Shown piece after piece: positions 19,768-33,603 of a DNA stretch of 33,603 bases. How positions within the stretch are numbered: the first letter of the stretch is position 1; each line of letters starts with the position of its first letter. Under the pieces are notes generated by a model that was not told the origin of the DNA, searched no databases, and worked only from the letters and a program-made list of their open reading frames with translations. This DNA is from an uncultured Oscillatoriales cyanobacterium (GTDB taxonomy: Bacteria > Cyanobacteriota > Cyanobacteriia > Cyanobacteriales > Microcoleaceae), in NCBI GenBank assembly GCA_903893625.1, contig CAITND010000106.1, forward strand, positions 1 to 33,603, in the 5' to 3' direction. The translations under genes were made by a program, and so were the position numbers.

Positions 19768-20574
19768 TTAATCAAGTAATTGATTAATTCTGGCAAATTG
19801 GCTATAGCTAGGACTCCGTTGACCTACTTTTTTTAATAAATTAATGGCTTCTAAATCTTGACATTCATGAGCCAAAAATGGTAAAATATAAAATAAAGCG
19901 AAAGCTAGATAGGTTTCTTCAATATTACACAACTCTTTGAGTAAATTAATCGCCTTTTTTCTATTAGCATCATCAATTGTTTCACTGGTTGCCAGATCTA
20001 AAAGAGCAAGCATTCTTTTAACTTTTTTACTTCGTTCGTCAATTAACTCTTTCCTTGTACCTCTTTGAGCATTTAGATCAAAAATATCTACAACAGTTTT
20101 ACCTCTATCCGTAAGCCCATCAATACAGGCTTTGTTAGTAGTTTGATCCCAAGTTAATTTAAGATGTTCAAAAATATCTGTTTGTTTATCAGTTGGATCG
20201 ATGAGCAAAGGTTTATGATTAGCATTTAGGGGAAATTTTGTCCCTTTATGTTTAGAATTATTACAAATTTTACAAGATAATAATAGGTTTGTCCACTCAA
20301 AGGTGAAATCAGTATATTCGCTTTTAGGATAAAAATGTTCAATATCCCCATAATCAACAATCCGAATCTGGCTCTCACAATAGGCACATTTCCCATGAAA
20401 CATTCCAACTAAAGCCTCCTTAACTTCAGGCTGATTATATTTATTAATAGCATTCTTAAGTTCGGTTTTTGTTGCCTTCGGATTGGCTTTAATCGCTTTG
20501 AGTTTAGTTAGCCATTCATTAGCGTTGGTTTCTAAAATCGTAGGAACTTGAGTTAATCGGGAAACGGGAATCAA
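19768..20574 (-). CDS. HNH endonuclease, PtuB-like (Septu-type defence)
   Basis: This is a predicted nuclease of 268 residues. The HNH core shows zinc pairs CAYC (63-66) and CKIC (101-104), the catalytic segment DIEHFYPKS with H80, and the tail CNNSKHKGTKFP. DIEHF-PKS together with W-NLL-SC-CN matches the HNH family partnered with AAA ATPases in Septu (PtuB) and some retrons. The start is TTG at 20574, overlapping the TGA stop of the upstream ATPase gene by four bases (TTGA), which implies translational coupling. The rest of the protein is helical with no domain I recognise. The pair ATPase-HNH in this order is the type I Septu layout. The phage trigger and nucleic acid target cannot be told from sequence. 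Confidence 0.85.
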   Translation of the reverse strand: MIPVSRLTQVPTILETNANEWLTKLKAIKANPKATKTELKNAINKYNQPEVKEALVGMFHGKCAYCESQIRIVDYGDIEHFYPKSEYTDFTFEWTNLLLSCKICNNSKHKGTKFPLNANHKPLLIDPTDKQTDIFEHLKLTWDQTTNKACIDGLTDRGKTVVDIFDLNAQRGTRKELIDERSKKVKRMLALLDLATSETIDDANRKKAINLLKELCNIEETYLAFALFYILPFLAHECQDLEAINLLKKVGQRSPSYSQFARINQLLD

Positions 20575-21929
20575 GGTAAATTCATCTCCAAAAACGCATT
20601 AATTCTATCATCTAAACTGCCGGGTTCAGGAGGAGAAATAGGTTGTTTATCCTGCATAAACAGTTTCAATTGGTTAAATTCTTGCTCTTCTTCTTTAGAA
20701 AGCTTATCTTTTTTGATTCTGAGTTCATGATATCGCTGAATTTTCTCCTGTGCGGAGGGGGAATGAGTAGATTCTAAACCAAAAGCAGGACTTCTGAGAA
20801 TGTAGTCAACATCATAAGCTGAGATGTCTTCAACAGGTGTAATTTTAGTTTCTCCGTTAACAATATCTAAACGTAAAGTTAAAGCATCTTCTCCGGCTCC
20901 GGCTGCAATCAAAGGACTATGAGTAGCAACAAAAAACTGAAGGTTGGGAAAAACTTCGCGTAGCAATTCAGCAATTAATCGTTGCCAAACAGGATGTAAG
21001 TGAATGTCTAATTCATCAATTAAAACAACACCCGATGCTTGAGTGGGATCTTCTAAATCAGGAAAGGTTTGAAGTAAGCGCCAAATTAAATCTCCTGCTA
21101 ACGCAATAATACTGCGATATCCATCTGATAAACCAATCGTTGAAACCCTTTGACCATTAACATCAAATTTAATTAAACCCTCCATACTCACTTCAGCAAT
21201 TTTTGTATTTCCAAGAAGTAGTTTTTCAATCGCATTGATTCCAATGTCTCGCATTTTTTTTGCAGTTGGATCTCCTTTGGCAATCCTAAAGTCTAAATAA
21301 ACCATCCATCTTTCAAATGAACTCAAAGCACTATCTTCATTAAATTGAGTGGCAAAGTTACTTGATCGTTTTGGAGGTTCTAAACTAGGAATTAAAACTT
21401 GACTGGTTCTCGTTAGACGACGAAACGCACCATATCCAGCAGCAAACCATCCTTTTGTATCGGATGCAAACGCATTCTTTCTCAACCAACTTAATATTTT
21501 TGAACTTTCTTCAATTAATGCAGGTTCTGTATAAGTTTCTTTACCGACTTTGACTGCTTTATCTGCTGTAACAAAATAAGAATAGGAAATTTTTTTTTCG
21601 ATTGGGCTCCTATTAAAAATTACCTTACCAAAAATTACAGCATCATTTTCTTCTTTATTTAAAGTAATACTTAGTTTCCCCGGCTTTTTAGAATCACAAA
21701 CCCAACCCGTAGGGCGAGGTAACAGTTCTTTAGCTGCTTCTGGCCCTGCTAACAGTAAGCCAATGGCTTGTAGCAATGTACTTTTGCCAACAGCATTTTC
21801 CCCTAATAAGGAAATCCAAGAATAGGGTTTTTGGCAATGATTAGGAACATTACCAGCACTGCGAGTAAAAGTAATTTTCTCGTTTTTAAAGCACTTAATG
21901 TTATTTAAAGTTACGCTTTCAACCCACAT
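20571..21929 (-). CDS. AAA family ATPase, PtuA-like (Septu-type defence)
   Basis: This SMC/ABC-like ATPase of 452 residues is a predicted partner of the adjacent HNH nuclease. Walker A is GENAVGKST (43-51), the signature-like segment is GLSDGYRS (266-273), Walker B is VVLIDELD (301-308), followed by IHLHP, and the H-loop is ATHSPL (335-340). The N-terminus (VESVTLNNIKCFKNEKITF) is typical of RecF/OLD/AAA15-type proteins. A charged C-terminal stretch (~395-430) may be a short coiled coil. AAGGAG upstream of the ATG is a strong ribosome binding site. It lies only 50 bp after ubiD in the same direction, with no good terminator between, so read-through is possible. It is shorter than the PtuA first described, so this could be a Septu variant or another ATPase-HNH defence pair. 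Confidence 0.85.
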   Translation of the reverse strand: MWVESVTLNNIKCFKNEKITFTRSAGNVPNHCQKPYSWISLLGENAVGKSTLLQAIGLLLAGPEAAKELLPRPTGWVCDSKKPGKLSITLNKEENDAVIFGKVIFNRSPIEKKISYSYFVTADKAVKVGKETYTEPALIEESSKILSWLRKNAFASDTKGWFAAGYGAFRRLTRTSQVLIPSLEPPKRSSNFATQFNEDSALSSFERWMVYLDFRIAKGDPTAKKMRDIGINAIEKLLLGNTKIAEVSMEGLIKFDVNGQRVSTIGLSDGYRSIIALAGDLIWRLLQTFPDLEDPTQASGVVLIDELDIHLHPVWQRLIAELLREVFPNLQFFVATHSPLIAAGAGEDALTLRLDIVNGETKITPVEDISAYDVDYILRSPAFGLESTHSPSAQEKIQRYHELRIKKDKLSKEEEQEFNQLKLFMQDKQPISPPEPGSLDDRINAFLEMNLP

Positions 21930-23667: not shown

Positions 23668-24327
23668 ATGCGATTACCAGAACCGCCAGAAGAATTGATC
23701 AAGCGCTATCTTCAAGGAGATCGGGAAGCTTGTCGAGAACTTTTGAAACGTCCTGAATATTATCTAATTTGTCAAATCATAGCCCGGAAAAGATTTTTAG
23801 GACAGTCCCACAACTGGGAGGATGCGGCTCAAGCAGCATTTGAAAAAGTGTTAATCGAAGCTTTAAACGGTAACTTTACCCAAGGTAGCCTAGAAAAATT
23901 TAATCATTGGTGTTCTAAAGTTGCCTTGAATTGTATTCTGGATTTACTGCGTAAAATTAAAACAGAAAGTAAATTTTTACAAAATAAAAACCCACAAATT
24001 ATTGATGATGTTCCTGATATTCGAGAAGATTTGGAAACAGAGGATACAAATGCTCAAATTCAAAAAGCCATTATTTTTATAGACCAGCAAAATCCCAAGA
24101 AACTGTTTCTTCAAATTTGGCAAGGATTAAAGTTAGGAAAAAAACAAACGGAAATTGCTCATGATTTAGGGTTAAAGCAATCTGAGGTTTCTAAGCGAAT
24201 TCGGGAATTAGCAGTTTTAGTTGGGAAAGAATTAGATTGGTTAAACGTTAAACAAGTAGAGGAGGAACTAAAAAACATTCGTCAGGGTCGAAAACCGAAG
24301 CGTTCTGAAGAAAATTGGGACAACTAA
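23668..24327 (+). CDS. sigma-70 family RNA polymerase sigma factor
   Basis: The product has 219 residues. The region 2-like part (~1-95) contains NWEDAAQAAFEKVL and FNHWCSKVALNCILDLLRK. A variable acidic linker follows (~105-130). The region 4-like helix-turn-helix is near residues 160-180 (KKQTEIAHDLGLKQSEVSKR). It is short like ECF (group 4) factors, with an atypical C-terminal extension rich in Lys/Arg. It is the first gene of a close plus-strand run: the DUF1822 gene begins 35 bp later, behind an AAGGAG. No classical anti-sigma gene is present, so the neighbouring DUF1822, pilin-like or CHAT proteins are candidates for control. Sigma factor next to DUF1822 and CHAT genes is an arrangement I recall as recurrent in cyanobacteria. 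Confidence 0.88.
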   Translation: MRLPEPPEELIKRYLQGDREACRELLKRPEYYLICQIIARKRFLGQSHNWEDAAQAAFEKVLIEALNGNFTQGSLEKFNHWCSKVALNCILDLLRKIKTESKFLQNKNPQIIDDVPDIREDLETEDTNAQIQKAIIFIDQQNPKKLFLQIWQGLKLGKKQTEIAHDLGLKQSEVSKRIRELAVLVGKELDWLNVKQVEEELKNIRQGRKPKRSEENWDN

Positions 24328-24362
24328 AATAGCCTCTATGACCAAAAAAAGGAGAATTAACA

Positions 24363-25580
24363 ATGAAATTAATGGAAATTAGCCGAGAATTGCCCATCAT
24401 TAATCCTGAACAAATTAAACCGGGACAAATTTGGGAAGTCAGTCGTCAAGTATTCAGTCCTCTGGAATTTACCCCAGAAGAACAACAGCATTTTTATTCC
24501 CCTGCTATTTTTGATTTTCTCAACGGTGATGCACCTCCTCGCTATGTGATGATTGTCAGGGAACCCGAACCAGAAATGGAAGAAACACCGGAATGGCAAA
24601 GTGTTTCGGTGATGTTATTGTCTGTAAAAACTGACTATCTGAGTCCCATTAATATCTTAATTCCGACAGCAATTTCCGGTTTAGAACAGGATTTAATCGC
24701 CGAAACATCGAATTTAATTCCGATGCTAACTTGTAATTTATTAAGACCTGTGGGAAAACGATTATCTCGGAAAATTTATGACCTTTTATTAGATGTGGGA
24801 GACTGTGAACAAGGATTTATTGAAAAAGCTCCTAGTTCACAGGAAATTTTAGCTTTGGGTTTGAAACAAGGAACTACAAATCACCCAGAATTTCATCAAC
24901 AGGAGTTAGACTGGAAAACGGTATTAGAAGTTCCTGTGGTGGCTTATCATCTCTATGTAAAAGCGGTGTTGACATTAGATGAAACCTTATTATTAGAACA
25001 ACTTAAGGCAGAAATACGGATACAACCTGTTCCCTTAAGTCAATGGTTTCAGGGAATTATTCAGACGGGATGGCAAACTTTCGAGGATGTGTTTGGAATA
25101 TTTTCTGCAACTCCCGCGTTAGAAGGATGGAGGGGTACATCTACCACTGATTTCCCAGGAGGTGAAGCGGAAATAACCCAGATTGAAACCTTAGTTCAAC
25201 AAATCCAAACCACTGAAGAGGATGACAACCTTTGGAATGCTGTAGCCACTTTGCGACAATTGCAACCCAACCATTCTGCTTTAGGGGTGAGACGGGTTAA
25301 GTCCATCAATATTCAGGAAACAGCCTTAGTTTTAACCCTAAACTTGATTTCCAAAGTCAAGGAAGAAGTGCGAATTTTATTGGAAGTGAACTCCCCAGAC
25401 CATTCCCCTCTCCCTGGAGATTTAAAAGTGATGATTTTGGATGAGAACCAAGATATTGTATTGGAGGATACCACAGAGAATGGAATTGTATCAATTGCAT
25501 TACAAGGCTTGATCGGAGAAAAATTTAGTGTCAAAATAACAACCAAAGATGATTTTATCCTTGAAGATTTTTTGATTTAG
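24363..25580 (+). CDS. DUF1822 family protein
   Basis: The protein has 405 residues, with no signal peptide or membrane helix. The C-terminal half has DUF1822 character: LSQWFQGIIQTGWQTFEDVF (~227-246), then RRVKSINIQETALVLTLNL and a beta-rich end finishing FSVKITTKDDFILEDFLI. The N-terminal ~150 residues differ from the usual family head. They run PGQIWEV, RYVMIV, VSVMLLS, ILIP, LTCNLLRPVGKRLS, a pattern loosely like MazF/PemK beta-barrels; this is speculative. AAGGAG seven bases before the ATG is a strong ribosome binding site. Position between a sigma factor and a CHAT protease makes it a candidate regulator or protease substrate. DUF1822 has no established function. Confidence 0.8.
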   Translation: MKLMEISRELPIINPEQIKPGQIWEVSRQVFSPLEFTPEEQQHFYSPAIFDFLNGDAPPRYVMIVREPEPEMEETPEWQSVSVMLLSVKTDYLSPINILIPTAISGLEQDLIAETSNLIPMLTCNLLRPVGKRLSRKIYDLLLDVGDCEQGFIEKAPSSQEILALGLKQGTTNHPEFHQQELDWKTVLEVPVVAYHLYVKAVLTLDETLLLEQLKAEIRIQPVPLSQWFQGIIQTGWQTFEDVFGIFSATPALEGWRGTSTTDFPGGEAEITQIETLVQQIQTTEEDDNLWNAVATLRQLQPNHSALGVRRVKSINIQETALVLTLNLISKVKEEVRILLEVNSPDHSPLPGDLKVMILDENQDIVLEDTTENGIVSIALQGLIGEKFSVKITTKDDFILEDFLI

Positions 25581-25626
25581 ATTTTGTCTGGAAAAATTTT
25601 TAACCAGATTTACCCAAACCTAACCC

Positions 25627-26118
25627 ATGAAACCTATATTCCGTCTCGGTGCATCTCAGCGTAACTCTCAATTCTCTGTTCAAGGATTTACCTTGATTGA
25701 GTTATTAGTTGTTATTATAATTATTGGCATTTTGTCAGTAATTGCAACTTCCTCATTCCTAAAATTTATCAATCGTGCTAAAGAGACTGAAGCAATAAAT
25801 ATTCTTAATTATTTAGAAAAGCTAGAGAAAAATTATATTCATGAAAATCAAGTATTAGCACCATCATTAACAGCATTAGAATATAATGGCAAAACCGAAA
25901 CGGAAAACTATTCTATTCAAGTTTTCTCAGATAATACGACATTACATGGAGCCATCCATATTGCTAAATCGAAAAAAAATGAGTTGAATTCCTATATTCA
26001 AATTATTTATTTGAAAAACAATACAATCACAACCTGTAAAGCTGTTCCTATTCTTAACCCAAATCCTGTATTACTGCTGATGCAAGCCATCATGAATCCC
26101 AAACAATTCTGTCCTTAA
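25627..26118 (+). CDS. type IV pilin-like protein
   Basis: This is a prepilin-like protein of 163 residues. The leader ends QG before FTLIELLVVIIIIGILSVIA, so PilD would be expected to cut after G20 and methylate F21; the conserved Glu at +5 is present. One N-terminal helix is followed by a small globular part with two Cys residues near the end (TTCKAV and QFCP), likely a disulfide as in major pilins. It lies 46 bp after the DUF1822 gene and 12 bp before the CHAT gene in the same direction, so it is likely co-transcribed. No pil assembly genes are nearby. It may be a minor pilin or a pilin-fold membrane sensor used by this cluster. Confidence 0.88.
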   Translation: MKPIFRLGASQRNSQFSVQGFTLIELLVVIIIIGILSVIATSSFLKFINRAKETEAINILNYLEKLEKNYIHENQVLAPSLTALEYNGKTETENYSIQVFSDNTTLHGAIHIAKSKKNELNSYIQIIYLKNNTITTCKAVPILNPNPVLLLMQAIMNPKQFCP

Positions 26119-26130
26119 TTATCAAAAAAT

Positions 26131-29100
26131 ATGTTATCTAATTCTTTCCATTCTCAAACCAAAAAAAACTATCAAAATCGTTCTTTTAGAGGAAAAGATT
26201 TATCCCTAGAAGACTTTTCTAACGCCGATATTCGGGGTTGTGATTTCAGTGAAGCCAACCTCACGGGAGCTAACTTTCGAGGGGCTAAAGCGGGATTATC
26301 ACAACAGGGCATTTACCGCAGTTTATTGATAGCAGCAGCCCTATCAGGATTATCAGGAGCCGCTGCTACAATAGCCGTTGGTCAACCGATTGCATTGATG
26401 ACTCCTAAACCTAATCCAGTCCTGCCTTTTACGGTCAATTTTATCATGGGCTTGATTTTGATTTTTGTGAATGCAATTTTATTAATATCGAGCCTCAAGA
26501 ATGGGTTAGAAAAAACAATTCAAAATCTAGGAATTACGATTGCAGTTTTGATTCCTGTCGGGGGAATTTTAGCTGCATTAGGAAATGCCAAAACTCCAAT
26601 TTTATCAGAGTTGCGAGTTTTTAGAATCAGCTATTTAATTAACTCAAACCAAATAGGAAACCCAATTTCTCCCCTAATTGTCACCCTTACGGCTTCAATG
26701 GGAGCCACGCTAACAGTTGTTTTTACCTTAGCTTTAGCCATTGCAATTACAACTATTACCTTAAACAAAATCTTCAAATTATTAATCATCGTCGAAGCAT
26801 TGGTGATTGGAATTATTGCTAGTGCTATTGTGACTAGAAATGCCGATGATGCAGTTTTTGAAGTGTTTTCAGGAGTTGATAGAGGGCCAGCTACTTTACC
26901 TGCCATCATCACCCTAATTGCCTTGGTGATATTATCAATAATTTTAGCAACTATTCTGATATTAGTGAGTAGTAATATTGGCAAAAGAGTTTTAAAAGAA
27001 GAAGAAAAATATCCCATTATTCGACAATTTGCGATCGCAATTTCCTCCTGGGGCGGAACTTCCTTTGTCAAAGCCAACTTAACTCAATCCCATTTTAATC
27101 AAGCCCTATTAAAAAGTACCGACTTTACCGATGCTAATATCAAGCATACACGCTGGTATCAAGCCGAAAAATTAGAATGGGCAAAAGTCGGAAACACGAT
27201 TTTAGAAAATGCCCAAGTCCGAGAATTACTGGTTAGTTTAGAAGGATATAGAAAAACATTTATTGGTCTAAATTTAAAGGAAGCAAACTTAATGAATGCT
27301 AACCTAGAATCTGCTAATTTAAGAGGATCTGATCTCAGTGAAGCCACCTTAGAAACGGCAAATTTAGAATGGGCAAACCTCACCCAAACTCAAGCCATCG
27401 GGACTAATTTTAGAGAAGCTCGTTTAACCGGGTCTTATGGTTTAAGCACTTGGAATATTGATAGCACCACTAATTTATTATGGGTGAATTGTAAGTTTAT
27501 TTATCTATTAGAATATCCCAAACCCGGAACCGATGACCGCGAACGTCGCCCCAGTAGCGGAGAATTTGGGCCAGATGAATTTACTAAATTGTTTCAAGAA
27601 GCGATAGATACCGTTGATTTAATCTTCCGTGAAGGAGTTGATTGGCGGGCGTTTATTTATTCCTTTAAAAAAGTTCAAGTTGAGAACTCAGAAACCGAAT
27701 TAACTATCCAAAGAATTGAAAATAAAGGCGATGGCGTGTTTATTGTGCGGGTGCAGGTTCCCCCGGAAGCTGATAAAACCAAAATTCATCAAAACTTTAC
27801 TCAAACCTATCAGGAAACCTTACAAATATTAGAAGCGGAATATCAAGAAAAATTAAAAATCAAAGACTCAGAAATTGCTAACTATCGTGAACGTAGTTCT
27901 AATATGACTGAAGTAATTCGGCTATTAGCCAGTCGAGAAATTACTCAAGACCGTAAATTCATCAAAAAATCTCCCCTAGTTGCAGGTAAATTAGTGATTT
28001 TTAAAATTATCAAAGGAGACTTTAAAACTGGGTTCACGGTGATGTTACAATTAGGACAAGATGGAATGTTACCCAGCACAGAAATATCCGGTTCCTTACC
28101 CCCTTTTCCTGAACTAGAAGCCACCTATCAACAGTGGAAAATCCTTTATCATAAACTCCAACTTCCTGTGCGGATTAGTGGTAGAAAAGTTAATCTTTTT
28201 TCCTCTGAAGATGTATGCAAAGAATCAGCAAAACTTTTAGAAAAACACCTCAAAATCTGGCTGAAATCAGAAGAATTTTATCCCCTCAAAGATCGGTTAC
28301 AACAAAAATTGAATTCAACGGATGAAATTCGATTGATTCTGCAAACAGAACATCCGACATTAATGCGACTTCCTTGGCAAGTTTGGGAGATTTTTGAACA
28401 TTACCCAAAAGCGGAAATAGCCTTGAGTTTACCCCAATACGACCAAGCGGAATCTGTTAATTTAAACCTACCCAGAACACGAGTTAGAATTTTAGCGATT
28501 TTAGGAAATAATCAAGATATTAATGTTCATAAAGATAGAGCTATTTTACAACAGATTATCGGTGCGGATGTGACGATTTTAGATCAACCCCAAAGGTTAG
28601 AGGTTGATGTTCACCTCCGGGATGAAATTGGCTGGGATATTCTGTTTTTTGCCGGACATAGTTTAACCGAGGAAGAATCAGGGATTATTCATATTAATCC
28701 GACGGATTATTTGACGATTTCTGATTTAAAATATTCCCTCCGATTTGCTGTTAATCGAGGGCTGAAATTAGCCATTTTTAACTCCTGTGATGGCTTGGGG
28801 TTAGCACGGGATTTAGCGGATTTACAAATTCCTCAAATTATTGTCATGCGAGAACCCGTACCTGATACTATTGCTACGGAATTTTTAAAGTATTTTCTCC
28901 TAGCATTTTCTAAGGGAAAAACCTTATATACAGCCGTGCGCGAAGCTAGAGAAAAACTCCACGCCAAAGAAGATCAATATCCCTGTGCGAGTTGGCTGCC
29001 AATTATTTTTCAAAATCCGGCAGAAATGCCATTAATTTGGGATGATTTGCGGGGTTTATCTTCAACAATAACTAATTTTAAAACCTGTTTAGAAGATTTA

Positions 29101-29346
29101 GCAAAATTACGAGAAATACTTGAACAAAATCTTGATTTATCTCCTTTAGAACAGGCGAATATTTTAGAGCAATTGCAAGCCTTAATTCAAATTGTGCCAA
29201 TGCCTCCATCGGAGCTTAAACAACGTTTAGGAAGTCAAGCTTTAATGGTGATTAAAGGCACAATTGCTGATTTACCAGCTACTTCTATCTTAAAACAGGA
29301 GGGTCAAAAACTATTGAAGGAAATTTATCAAGAAATTTTGGGTTAG
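26131..29346 (+). CDS. pentapeptide-repeat / multi-helix membrane / CHAT caspase-like protease
   Basis: The protein has 1071 residues with a mosaic layout. A first pentapeptide-repeat block (~18-55, ANLTGANFRGA) is followed by about six hydrophobic helices (~65-280). A second pentapeptide block (~310-437, NLKEANLMNANLESANLRGS) follows. A linker with a coiled-coil-like stretch (~555-600) leads to a C-terminal CHAT domain (~765-975). The caspase-type dyad is visible: H843 in FFAGHS and C886 in NSCDGLG, 43 residues apart as expected for CHAT. The protease part should face the cytoplasm, since it lies on the same side as the pentapeptide repeats after an even number of helices. It is 12 bp after the pilin-like gene. 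CHAT proteases can cut partner proteins after a trigger; here the sigma factor, DUF1822 protein or pilin are natural candidates. The trigger is unknown. Confidence 0.88.
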   Translation: MLSNSFHSQTKKNYQNRSFRGKDLSLEDFSNADIRGCDFSEANLTGANFRGAKAGLSQQGIYRSLLIAAALSGLSGAAATIAVGQPIALMTPKPNPVLPFTVNFIMGLILIFVNAILLISSLKNGLEKTIQNLGITIAVLIPVGGILAALGNAKTPILSELRVFRISYLINSNQIGNPISPLIVTLTASMGATLTVVFTLALAIAITTITLNKIFKLLIIVEALVIGIIASAIVTRNADDAVFEVFSGVDRGPATLPAIITLIALVILSIILATILILVSSNIGKRVLKEEEKYPIIRQFAIAISSWGGTSFVKANLTQSHFNQALLKSTDFTDANIKHTRWYQAEKLEWAKVGNTILENAQVRELLVSLEGYRKTFIGLNLKEANLMNANLESANLRGSDLSEATLETANLEWANLTQTQAIGTNFREARLTGSYGLSTWNIDSTTNLLWVNCKFIYLLEYPKPGTDDRERRPSSGEFGPDEFTKLFQEAIDTVDLIFREGVDWRAFIYSFKKVQVENSETELTIQRIENKGDGVFIVRVQVPPEADKTKIHQNFTQTYQETLQILEAEYQEKLKIKDSEIANYRERSSNMTEVIRLLASREITQDRKFIKKSPLVAGKLVIFKIIKGDFKTGFTVMLQLGQDGMLPSTEISGSLPPFPELEATYQQWKILYHKLQLPVRISGRKVNLFSSEDVCKESAKLLEKHLKIWLKSEEFYPLKDRLQQKLNSTDEIRLILQTEHPTLMRLPWQVWEIFEHYPKAEIALSLPQYDQAESVNLNLPRTRVRILAILGNNQDINVHKDRAILQQIIGADVTILDQPQRLEVDVHLRDEIGWDILFFAGHSLTEEESGIIHINPTDYLTISDLKYSLRFAVNRGLKLAIFNSCDGLGLARDLADLQIPQIIVMREPVPDTIATEFLKYFLLAFSKGKTLYTAVREAREKLHAKEDQYPCASWLPIIFQNPAEMPLIWDDLRGLSSTITNFKTCLEDLAKLREILEQNLDLSPLEQANILEQLQALIQIVPMPPSELKQRLGSQALMVIKGTIADLPATSILKQEGQKLLKEIYQEILG

Positions 29347-29378
29347 TTGGAATATTCTCAGCAGAACTGACGTTATAT
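29347..29378 (+). promoter_or_regulatory. shared upstream motif, copy 1
   Basis: TTGGAATATT (29347-29356), then 13 bases, then ACGTTATAT (29370-29378), in front of the small gene at 29409. The same two blocks with the same 13-base gap occur at 29701-29732 before the PEP-CTERM gene. It starts at the base after the CHAT stop codon. A promoter or operator is possible; the -35/-10 reading would have an unusually long 20-base spacer. Confidence 0.45.
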
Positions 29379-29408
29379 TAACTATAACTTACAGTGTCTT
29401 TGGGAAAA

Positions 29409-29624
29409 ATGAGTAAAATTTGTGAACTTGTTCAAAATAGTTTAGCAACTGGTTACTTAACTTTAGAAGCAGAACAAGAATTAAGAAGACTATTGCAAAC
29501 TACAAAGTATGGGGTTTCTGAATTAAATACTTTTGCTGATTTGCAATACGCCGGAATACAAGGTCTGATTCGCCAAGAGTCCCGTGAACTTTTAGAGTCA
29601 GTTCATCTGGAAATTCAAGTTTGA
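29409..29624 (+). CDS. small protein of unknown function downstream of the CHAT gene
   Basis: The product is 71 residues from ATG 29409; a GTG five codons upstream (29394) is in frame but less likely. It is helical and charged: SKICELVQNSLATGYLTLEA, then EQELRRLLQTTKYG and a final ESRELLESVHLEIQV. No signal peptide or membrane segment is seen. I recall similar ~70-residue cyanobacterial proteins of unknown function starting MSKICELV, so I treat it as real. It follows the CHAT gene by 62 bp in the same direction and may belong to the same unit, but carries its own upstream motif that is repeated before the next gene. Confidence 0.65.
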   Translation: MSKICELVQNSLATGYLTLEAEQELRRLLQTTKYGVSELNTFADLQYAGIQGLIRQESRELLESVHLEIQV

Positions 29625-31480: not shown

Positions 31481-33603
31481 ATGTTATTTCGCAAATCCAA
31501 CCGCAAAAACAAAAAATCTCAGACCTTTAATTCTCAAGAAACCTTCATTTTAGAACCGATTTTAACCCCTAGTGGTTTTGTGGATACTGGAGATGATCAA
31601 CCTGATCCTGTTACCTTTGAAGACATAGATTTACACACAGATATTGACCATCCTGACAATTTATTAGATCCGATTGATCATTCTATTGCAGATTTACCCT
31701 ATCAAGATCCTTCAAACTTAGATTTAGATACTGATTTAGAAGAAATTCCCTTCATTACAACGGATCTCGAACTCAGTTCTCCAGAATCAATAGAAATAAC
31801 TCAGGATGATTTAACTCCTGAAGAAACCTCAATCACTTTTGAAAATTCTGAAACTCTAATTTCTGATGATATTACTTTTGTTCAAAACTCAGAAAATCCT
31901 GATCATACTGAAGTTTTAACAGCAGAAAATAACCCCGATCTCTTATTAGATTTATCAGAAAATTCGAGTGAATATCAGAATTATCAAGCGGTTGAAACTC
32001 CAGTATTAACCCTTGATGATTCTAATCAACCGGATAGTCAGGAGTTAGAATCACCAGAACATCAGATTGTTGATGGTTCTATAGGACTTGAAACGGATTT
32101 ATCCCTAGAAGATCATCAAGATAGTTTAACTGACGCTGAACCTGTCGAAACAGAGGAATTAGCAACAGAAAATCACCCCATTGAAACAACGGAAATAATA
32201 TCGGATTCAGAGATTGAACCCTTAACAGATTCACCGGAAAAAACTGATCCTGTTCAAATAGAATTAGCAATTGATCAACCGATTGAATCCGAACCCAATC
32301 TGGATCATCATTTAACTGAAGATCTAAAATCTGACTCTGATCAAACCGTTGAATTGGTAACAGAACCGTTACCAGAAACCCCTGCTGAAAATCATCCTTT
32401 AGAAACGAATAGCGATGCTCAAGTGATTGATGCGCTCGCCAATTCTCAACCAGACTTTCAATTTGATTCCGGTGTATTTACCGTTGGGGAAACGGGAGAA
32501 GTGACGATTGATTATCTATTTGATGGCGGGAAATATAAAGGGGAATTAGCCATCTTTAGTTTAGAGGGAATGGAACACTTTGAACCCGGTTCATCCGACT
32601 TTATTAAAGAAGCTGCAAGTCGGGCTTTAAGTGATTCCAACTTAGGACATATTGTAATTTCTGATATTACACAAGGGGCGAAATTTAGTGGTAATTTATC
32701 CGGTGAAACCAATTGGAATGGCGGTGAATATTTGGGATTAAAAACCGTTGAAATGCGACCTGGAGATACCTTTGGGATAATGTTAGTTCCCAATGGAAAA
32801 GTACAGCAAGTCTTTAATAATCCTGATATCAGTGGCGCAACTAAACCTCTATTTTCTTTAGCAACAGCTAACCCTGATGATGGTTTCCAAGTAGGACAAA
32901 TTGCCGATATTAATGGCGAAGGAAATACTTTCGCTATGGAAGATTTACGAATTGATCAACACACAGATAAAGACTATAACGATATTATTTTTCAAGTCCG
33001 GGGTGCGAAGGGGGAAGCAGTACATTTAGATGAGGTTATGAATCCCCAAAAAGATTGGCGTTCTTCTGATTTAGGACAAGCATTAATTGATTATGCTGAA
33101 CCTTATATTAATACAGAGGAACCTGAACCCATCAATGAATTTGAGGATATTGTTGGGGATTTAGTTAATAACTTAGATGATTTAATTCAGGATAATCAAG
33201 ATCTAAGCGAACCGGGGATAGAGGTCAACAGTCCATCGGAAAATATCGAATATTCAGAACAGATTGAATCTCCAGAATCAGTCGTTAATTCTGAAACTGA
33301 AAACCCAGAAGTAGAACCTACTATTTATGAATCAGAATCTATTTCTAACAGTGAAAACCCAAAAGTAGAACCTACTATTTCTGAATTAGAATCTATTTCT
33401 AACAGTGAAGCTAACGACTCAGAAATTGGCAGTGAACAGACCGATCAATTAACAGAATCTCATCCAGTAGAATCCTCTGAACCTGAAGATTTAGAACAAA
33501 ATCCCTTAGTTCCTGCTAACGAAATTTCTTCCGAAAATATTGAACAGCAAGAACCCATTAATTCTGAAGAATTAGCCGTTAATTCTGACAGTGAAAACCC
33601 AAA
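31481..33603 (+). CDS. very acidic DUF4114 domain protein, 3' end beyond the window
   Basis: The reading frame is open from ATG 31481 to the right edge without a stop (707 full codons seen). AGGAG lies about ten bases upstream of the ATG and supports the start. The N-terminus is short and basic (MLFRKSNRKNKKSQTF) with no classical signal peptide. Residues ~25-325 are low-complexity and rich in Glu, Asp, Ser, Thr and Pro. A globular DUF4114-bearing part follows at ~328-530, with FDGGKYKGELAIFSLEG near its start and DKDYNDIIFQVRG near its end. The acidic low-complexity style then resumes, with imperfect repeats of a NPxVEPTIxExESISNSE pattern near 33300-33410. DUF4114 is common in secreted, calcium-binding-type cyanobacterial proteins; a secreted or surface role is likely but the export route is not visible. 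C-terminal domains are unknown because the sequence ends. Confidence 0.85.
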   Translation, partial: MLFRKSNRKNKKSQTFNSQETFILEPILTPSGFVDTGDDQPDPVTFEDIDLHTDIDHPDNLLDPIDHSIADLPYQDPSNLDLDTDLEEIPFITTDLELSSPESIEITQDDLTPEETSITFENSETLISDDITFVQNSENPDHTEVLTAENNPDLLLDLSENSSEYQNYQAVETPVLTLDDSNQPDSQELESPEHQIVDGSIGLETDLSLEDHQDSLTDAEPVETEELATENHPIETTEIISDSEIEPLTDSPEKTDPVQIELAIDQPIESEPNLDHHLTEDLKSDSDQTVELVTEPLPETPAENHPLETNSDAQVIDALANSQPDFQFDSGVFTVGETGEVTIDYLFDGGKYKGELAIFSLEGMEHFEPGSSDFIKEAASRALSDSNLGHIVISDITQGAKFSGNLSGETNWNGGEYLGLKTVEMRPGDTFGIMLVPNGKVQQVFNNPDISGATKPLFSLATANPDDGFQVGQIADINGEGNTFAMEDLRIDQHTDKDYNDIIFQVRGAKGEAVHLDEVMNPQKDWRSSDLGQALIDYAEPYINTEEPEPINEFEDIVGDLVNNLDDLIQDNQDLSEPGIEVNSPSENIEYSEQIESPESVVNSETENPEVEPTIYESESISNSENPKVEPTISELESISNSEANDSEIGSEQTDQLTESHPVESSEPEDLEQNPLVPANEISSENIEQQEPINSEELAVNSDSENP

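Follow-up and report, generated by a model that had tools for sequence, protein, structure and literature searches.

The window analysed here is a stretch of 33,603 nucleotides (positions 1 to 33,603 of contig CAITND010000106.1, assembly GCA_903893625.1) and is a Planktothrix contig, in which five plus-strand genes at 23668..29624 form an operon for a sigma factor, a protein with a DUF1822 domain, a pilin-like protein, a CHAT protease and a small open reading frame (ORF). An initial reading made from the sequence alone had listed these genes, and an ORF check confirmed their existence and positions together with the intergenic gaps of 35, 46 and 12 bp. The fourth gap, given earlier as 62 bp, is instead 47 bp to the GTG start of the small ORF, and the former value is consistent with an internal ATG of that ORF at 29409. 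Relatives of the CHAT protein at 94-95% identity were found in Planktothrix sp. PCC 11201, the metagenome-assembled genome CG2_30_40_61, and Planktothrix sp. UBA8402, and a remnant of it in P. rubescens PCC 7821.

The first gene (23668..24327) encodes an extracytoplasmic function (ECF)-type sigma factor of 219 amino acids (aa), which matches TIGR02937 (sigma70-ECF) with 46.5 bits against a cut-off of 42.9, while its score with Pfam sigma region 2 is under the cut-off for that family. The second gene (24363..25580) encodes a protein of 405 aa whose assignment to DUF1822 holds over residues 207-403 only (PF08852, 63.3 bits). Residues 1-190 (24363..24932) form a different, unnamed domain that we call dufN, so that by its domain content the protein is a chimera of dufN and a C-terminal half that is DUF1822 proper (24933..25580, hereafter the C-half). 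The absence of an ordinary anti-sigma factor, remarked upon in the sequence-only reading, was borne out by Pfam and TIGR family scans, which matched none among the five genes.

Downstream lie an accessory type IV pilin-like gene (25627..26118, 163 aa; Pilin_GH 32.7 bits, N_methyl 29.2 bits) and the gene for the CHAT protein (26131..29346, 1071 aa; Pfam CHAT 47 bits, Pentapeptide 86.1 bits). Residues 1-445 of the latter (26131..27465) consist of pentapeptide repeats flanking six or seven hydrophobic spans, and are followed by a conserved middle domain (residues 446-615, 27466..27975) and by the CHAT protease module (residues 619-964, 27985..29022) with H843 at 28657-28659 and C886 at 28786-28788. 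The CHAT domain belongs to the caspase-like cysteine proteases, and the protein appears to be set in the membrane, with the spans among the pentapeptide repeats as its likely sensing part. A hydropathy scan placed seven candidate spans between residues 65 and 277 of the CHAT protein, of which two overlap, and a single one in the pilin; the sigma factor, the DUF1822 protein and the small ORF had no candidates. A query of residues 302-615, covering pentapeptide repeats and middle domain, found matches in 158 of the 243 genomes of the order. The small ORF (29394..29624, 76 aa from GTG) has no Pfam family match, and its membership in the operon is unsure; among four compared Planktothrix loci (our locus numbers carry an L, our genome numbers a G) it is present in three (L084, L085, and L088), with no call in L086.

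Three pairwise Planktothrix comparisons gave omega values of 0.05-0.07 for the CHAT protease module, 0.31-0.37 for the sigma factor and DUF1822 protein, and 0.44-0.63 for the pilin. The 15 bases that precede the sigma start, ACTTTCCACCTAACC, are identical across five Planktothrix loci, and their core occurs at a single place in the window's plus strand, before the sigma gene. Promoter- and terminator-like sites were found near shuffle level.

We surveyed the adjacency of sigma, DUF1822, and CHAT genes that the sequence-only reading had proposed to look for in other cyanobacteria, and found it conserved. In a set of 291 genomes from the phylum, 187 have DUF1822, and 100 stretches cut around mostly high-scoring DUF1822 matches (some around sigma paralogues), which is not a random sample, yielded a set of 86 DUF1822 genes, the window's included and two duplicates removed. 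A qualifying same-strand upstream gene was present in 82 of these loci, and single-linkage clustering by BLAST put 76 of the 82 into two groups of sigma-like proteins, giving a sigma-like upstream gene in 76/86; TIGR02937 matched 53 of the 82 at E 0.001, and some cluster members are sigma-like by linkage only. A strong CHAT-module match was found no more than three genes downstream of DUF1822 in 51/86 loci, with Pfam CHAT confirmed in 50 of those 51 proteins. H843 and C886, which the earlier reading had judged intact, are present in the window and are two of the eight invariant columns in the alignment of the 51 modules. The remaining parts of these proteins vary (CHASE2 in 24, Peripla_BP_6 in 8, pentapeptide repeats in 5). 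Such loci are common and often multi-copy in the surveyed cyanobacteria, and DUF1822 itself is little named in the open-licence literature. As a side observation, DUF928 accounted for 13 of 26 fourth genes after CHAT that were picked by size and spacing (e.g. L144 and L147) and is not in the window operon, and family f31, on another branch of the phylum, comprises many small genomes (about 1.5-2.5 Mb) with single weak DUF1822 matches.

Planktothrix proteins were the only matches to dufN within our first set of loci; a sequence search then placed it in 21 of 243 genomes of the order and a profile search in 17 of 388 genomes of the class, which together with members of the genus gave 35 distinct dufN loci, after removal of duplicates (L104 = L086, L105 = L084, L106 = L088, and L107 = part of L087) and of repeat cuts (L267-L270, L272, and L279). 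None of 17 dufN members had a convincing Pfam match, and we found no description of the domain in literature searches covering open-licence papers. A same-strand sigma gene lies at most 700 bp upstream in 31/35 loci. In a tree of 63 sigma factors shorter than 345 aa, from which L087 was excluded (it is counted as decayed elsewhere) along with sigmas of 345 aa or more, the 31 dufN-linked sigmas, the window's among them, separated from 29 that lie beside ordinary DUF1822 genes (99/93; 99% of bootstrap trees). Sigma factors held out from profile training sorted alike (11/11 dufN-linked, 9/9 others).

We identified three forms of dufN. It stands alone in nine loci (204-265 aa), and no CHAT module was found in any of the eight of these with enough sequence (6.3-20 kb). 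In 24 loci it is joined to the C-half, and a same-strand CHAT module follows in 13 of the 14 that could be judged, in one case cut by the flank; in eight further loci the flank stops within a pentapeptide gene, so that only its beginning is visible, and the judgement leaves aside L271, which is unreadable, and the decayed L087. The C-half was assigned by Pfam match in L253, by a weak profile match together with sequence reading in L283, and by sequence reading in L282. With the eight partial loci scored as CHAT-bearing, the association between C-half and CHAT has a Fisher p of 1.5e-6, the related genomes being not independent. In the third form dufN is fused to NB-ARC (58.5 bits) and WD40 domains in a protein of 1306 aa that sits behind a sigma gene (L286:1424-5344 in G651, the same place as L280). 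A similar dufN start opens a 1314-aa frame in L285 (G704), of which only the first part was read.

Stand-alone dufN genes fall, by eye, on several branches of the sigma tree, so that joint gain or loss of the C-half and CHAT seems to have happened repeatedly. This pattern suggests that dufN travels with the sigma factor and the DUF1822 C-half with the protease. The earlier reading is sustained as regards adjacency and refined as regards the DUF1822 protein, residues 1-190 pairing with one sigma clade and the C-half with CHAT. It is this domain map that looks new, the sigma/DUF1822/CHAT neighbourhood being already in print.

Specifically, section 9 of Kaur et al. (eLife 2021, PMC8195603) describes an EACC2-caspase module that stays constant while the C-termini vary, with an ECF sigma factor and a DUF1822 gene beside it, and proposes a transcriptional output; the general idea of caspase, ECF sigma, and DUF1822 as one system thus dates from 2021 and is not new. 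That section does not mention dufN and does not call DUF1822 an anti-sigma factor. The window shares with this system the CHAT/caspase module, our profile of which matches residues 619-964 with 482 bits, and the ECF sigma and DUF1822 genes that adjoin the protease, although DUF1822 is here the C-half only. The differences lie in architecture: the module is N-terminal in the published system and C-terminal in the window (residues 619-964 of 1071), pentapeptide repeats and membrane spans precede it here, dufN replaces the N-terminal half of DUF1822, and the operon includes a pilin gene. The module is N-terminal in 49 of 57 other CHAT loci without dufN and in three of the 13 dufN loci where it was seen. 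Because its protease module is not N-terminal, we file the window operon, on domain comparison, as a variant of the EACC2-caspase / ECF sigma / DUF1822 system.

The type III-E Craspase (Csx29/Csx30/CASP-sigma) offers a second parallel, one already drawn in the sequence-only reading. Both systems have a CHAT protease, a two-domain partner, and an ECF sigma factor, whereas the CHAT protein of the window is membrane-linked with pentapeptide repeats. According to PMC10028731, the N-terminal domain of Csx30 suffices for binding CASP-sigma and the cut site lies in the C-terminal domain; by itself the N-terminal fragment was not inhibitory, which leaves the release step unsettled even for Csx30. The likeness is one of logic and not of demonstrated descent, PDB profile searches having found no sequence link for dufN or DUF1822. 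A specific tie to type III-E was not upheld: the CAS_III-E_sigma model scored 34.6 bits with the window sigma against a cut-off of 100 and also matched in seven of 14 control genomes, and we therefore reject this kinship and regard the match as generic. Among PDB profile matches with E up to 10 there was no Csx30 for DUF1822 (nine matches) or for dufN (eight), the presence of Csx30 in the PDB copy being unverified, and profile searches gave no significant solved relative for DUF1822, the CHAT protein, or dufN. DegS/RseA and RsiW, as described in PMC10028731, exemplify regulated proteolysis of anti-sigma factors and share with the switch proposed below a protease-controlled release of an ECF sigma; they employ serine or site-2 proteases and membrane anti-sigmas, whereas the protease of the window is of the CHAT type and no spans are predicted in its adaptor.

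As for the fold of dufN, a MazF/PemK-like one is a lead only. The two share colinear GEIW, VSVM, and IP..ISG...D blocks, and with a widened dufN profile PemK was the best of seven profiles (score 24.6, P 0.0023, probability 12.6%; next 19.5; best of 20 shuffles 15.0). With the first dufN profile PemK reached 15.7, below a sigma profile at 23.3, and matches of dufN to MazF in PDB were non-significant (E 0.31-0.92).

Within the genus, the gene order of the window operon is identical in L084, L085, L086, and L088, the DUF1822 gene of L088 being split into two frames. Across the 10 Planktothrix genomes searched, that of the window included, the whole order is present in five (G000, G157, G307, G314, and G322 with the split DUF1822), G255 and G303 hold operon remnants, G310 has a sigma paralogue only, and G317 and G320 have no sigma match; the operon is therefore dispensable in Planktothrix. 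Its parts have decayed jointly in P. rubescens (L107/L087) and in G303 (L092). A second set lies on contig 42 of the same genome (L096) and comprises a sigma-like gene, a DUF1822 gene in two frames, and a pentapeptide CHAT protein of 870 aa; the sigma-like gene scores 62 bits with our sigma profile, but its match to Pfam sigma region 4 is no better than E 0.2. In addition, a close paralogue of the window sigma without dufN occurs in G157 and G310, and as a fragment in G322 (L089, L090, and L091), and is followed on the same strand by a gene whose product, about 328 aa long, is rich in repeats.

We hypothesize that the operon encodes a sensor-protease-sigma switch, a reading that we hold to be somewhat short of an even chance. 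The product of the middle gene would serve as a two-part adaptor whose dufN part (residues 1-190) binds the sigma factor in the manner of an anti-sigma and keeps it inactive. Upon a trigger sensed by the membrane part of the CHAT protein, the protease would become active and cut or remodel the DUF1822 C-half, whereby dufN would let go and the freed sigma could direct its target genes. The gene order, the catalytic residues, and both pairings come from comparison, from which we infer binding, inhibition, cleavage, trigger, and regulon.

Several observations weigh against such a switch. Four of the 35 dufN loci have no same-strand sigma upstream: L087 is decayed and its ORF begins with sigma residues, the sigma of L248 is convergent, and L271 and L282 show no sigma as far as the flank reaches. 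The dufN-linked group also contains three sigmas that stand without dufN (L089, L090, and L093), and the fourteenth judgeable locus with a C-half (L242) adjoins a broken, convergent CHAT gene. Moreover, several Planktothrix genomes lack the operon or have it in decayed form, and 35 of the 86 surveyed DUF1822 loci lack a CHAT module within three genes downstream, so that CHAT is not required by every sigma/DUF1822 pair.

A different division of labour would make CHAT itself the effector, processing itself or other targets, with the sigma factor and DUF1822 only tuning expression or a threshold. Kaur et al. (PMC8195603, section 9) propose autopeptidase activation in EACC2-caspase systems, where the ECF sigma may come last, and the variable sensor parts of the CHAT protein also accord with this account. 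We nevertheless consider it improbable, if deserving of serious weight, since the C-half and CHAT come and go jointly while dufN and the sigma stay, a pattern suggesting that CHAT and the adaptor are directly linked. To much the same degree we doubt that DUF1822/dufN acts positively, as a partner or scaffold delivering the sigma factor to a signal, with CHAT either non-cutting or removing an activator. The fusion of dufN to an NB-ARC-WD40 sensor could deliver a sigma as well as withhold one. The usual position of an anti-sigma gene, however, is just downstream of that of an ECF-type sigma, and this is where the adaptor gene sits. Csx30 is, moreover, an inhibitory precedent tied to a protease (PMC10028731).

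The pilin was the other cut partner put forward in the sequence-only reading, and might be a CHAT substrate or sensing partner, with the sigma controlling pilus or surface genes. A pilin-like gene does recur with pentapeptide-membrane CHAT proteins: it follows CHAT in eight of nine fetched loci that combine a non-dufN sigma, a DUF1822-like gene, and such a CHAT protein (L156, L255, L256, L259, L260, L262, L263, and L265; the exception is L096), and precedes CHAT in all five Planktothrix loci. Pfam Pilin_GH was assigned in the window, L255, and L256, and the middle gene of L259 has no DUF1822 profile match and is DUF1822-like in its first residues only. On the other hand, no pilin-like gene was found in any of the five non-Planktothrix dufN-type pentapeptide CHAT loci read downstream (L239, L240, L250, L251, and L252), the phmmer matches are partly due to a common N-terminal helix, and selection on the pilin is the loosest in the operon after the range of the small ORF. 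With a pilin-like gene accompanying only one CHAT subtype, its candidacy as cut partner is weak and a central role is very doubtful; the pilin looks, from this distribution, like an accessory of that subtype. Elsewhere the place that the pilin takes in Planktothrix, between DUF1822 and CHAT, is held by small variable genes in L239, L240, L250, L251, and L096: a DUF433 gene (L239:9406-9696), a gene for an unknown protein of 124 aa (L250 and L251), and, in L096 on contig 42, a pair of short ORFs. Finally, that the sigma/DUF1822/CHAT adjacency is functionally meaningless is scarcely credible, as it recurs with divergent sequences in many families and its parts decay together in P. rubescens and G303.

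More generally, the sensor-protease-sigma switch could be one instance of a wider arrangement, which we regard as unlikely, though less so than either of the first two alternatives above. Here dufN would be an unnamed anti-sigma domain, perhaps with a MazF-like fold, that acts as an exchangeable coupler and connects one sigma clade to CHAT by way of the C-half, or to an NB-ARC-WD40 (NLR-like) sensor without an intermediary. On this view cyanobacteria would possess caspase- and NLR-controlled transcription, and Csx30/CASP-sigma might be the CRISPR-bound relative, or a convergent twin, of a widespread chromosomal logic. Should dufN prove to be an anti-sigma, an unnamed family would gain a function, the transcription arm of Craspase would gain a non-CRISPR parallel, and the role of cyanobacterial caspase-like proteases would become testable with three genes. 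In the NB-ARC-WD40 fusion a single domain would, likewise, connect RNA polymerase with a sensor of the NLR type.

A role in defence, which the sequence-only reading had entertained beside transcription, did not emerge: no result points to one for the operon, PADLOC having returned two weak matches, both to the sigma factor. A search for viral carriers of the CHAT module gave 59 pattern matches, none confirmed, and an Rfam scan of the window had no match, RNA-guided parts having been looked for by no other search. A Septu-type defence pair, separated from the operon by one gene (ubiD), lies on the minus strand at 19768-21929 of the window (PADLOC: PtuA 594.6 bits and PtuB 181.1 bits, with a 4 bp overlap), and in the Planktothrix relatives L084-L086 another large gene occupies its place. 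Tandem repeats lie near both window ends, at 157-984 with units of 70-72 bases and at 33298-33409 with a unit of 54 bases.

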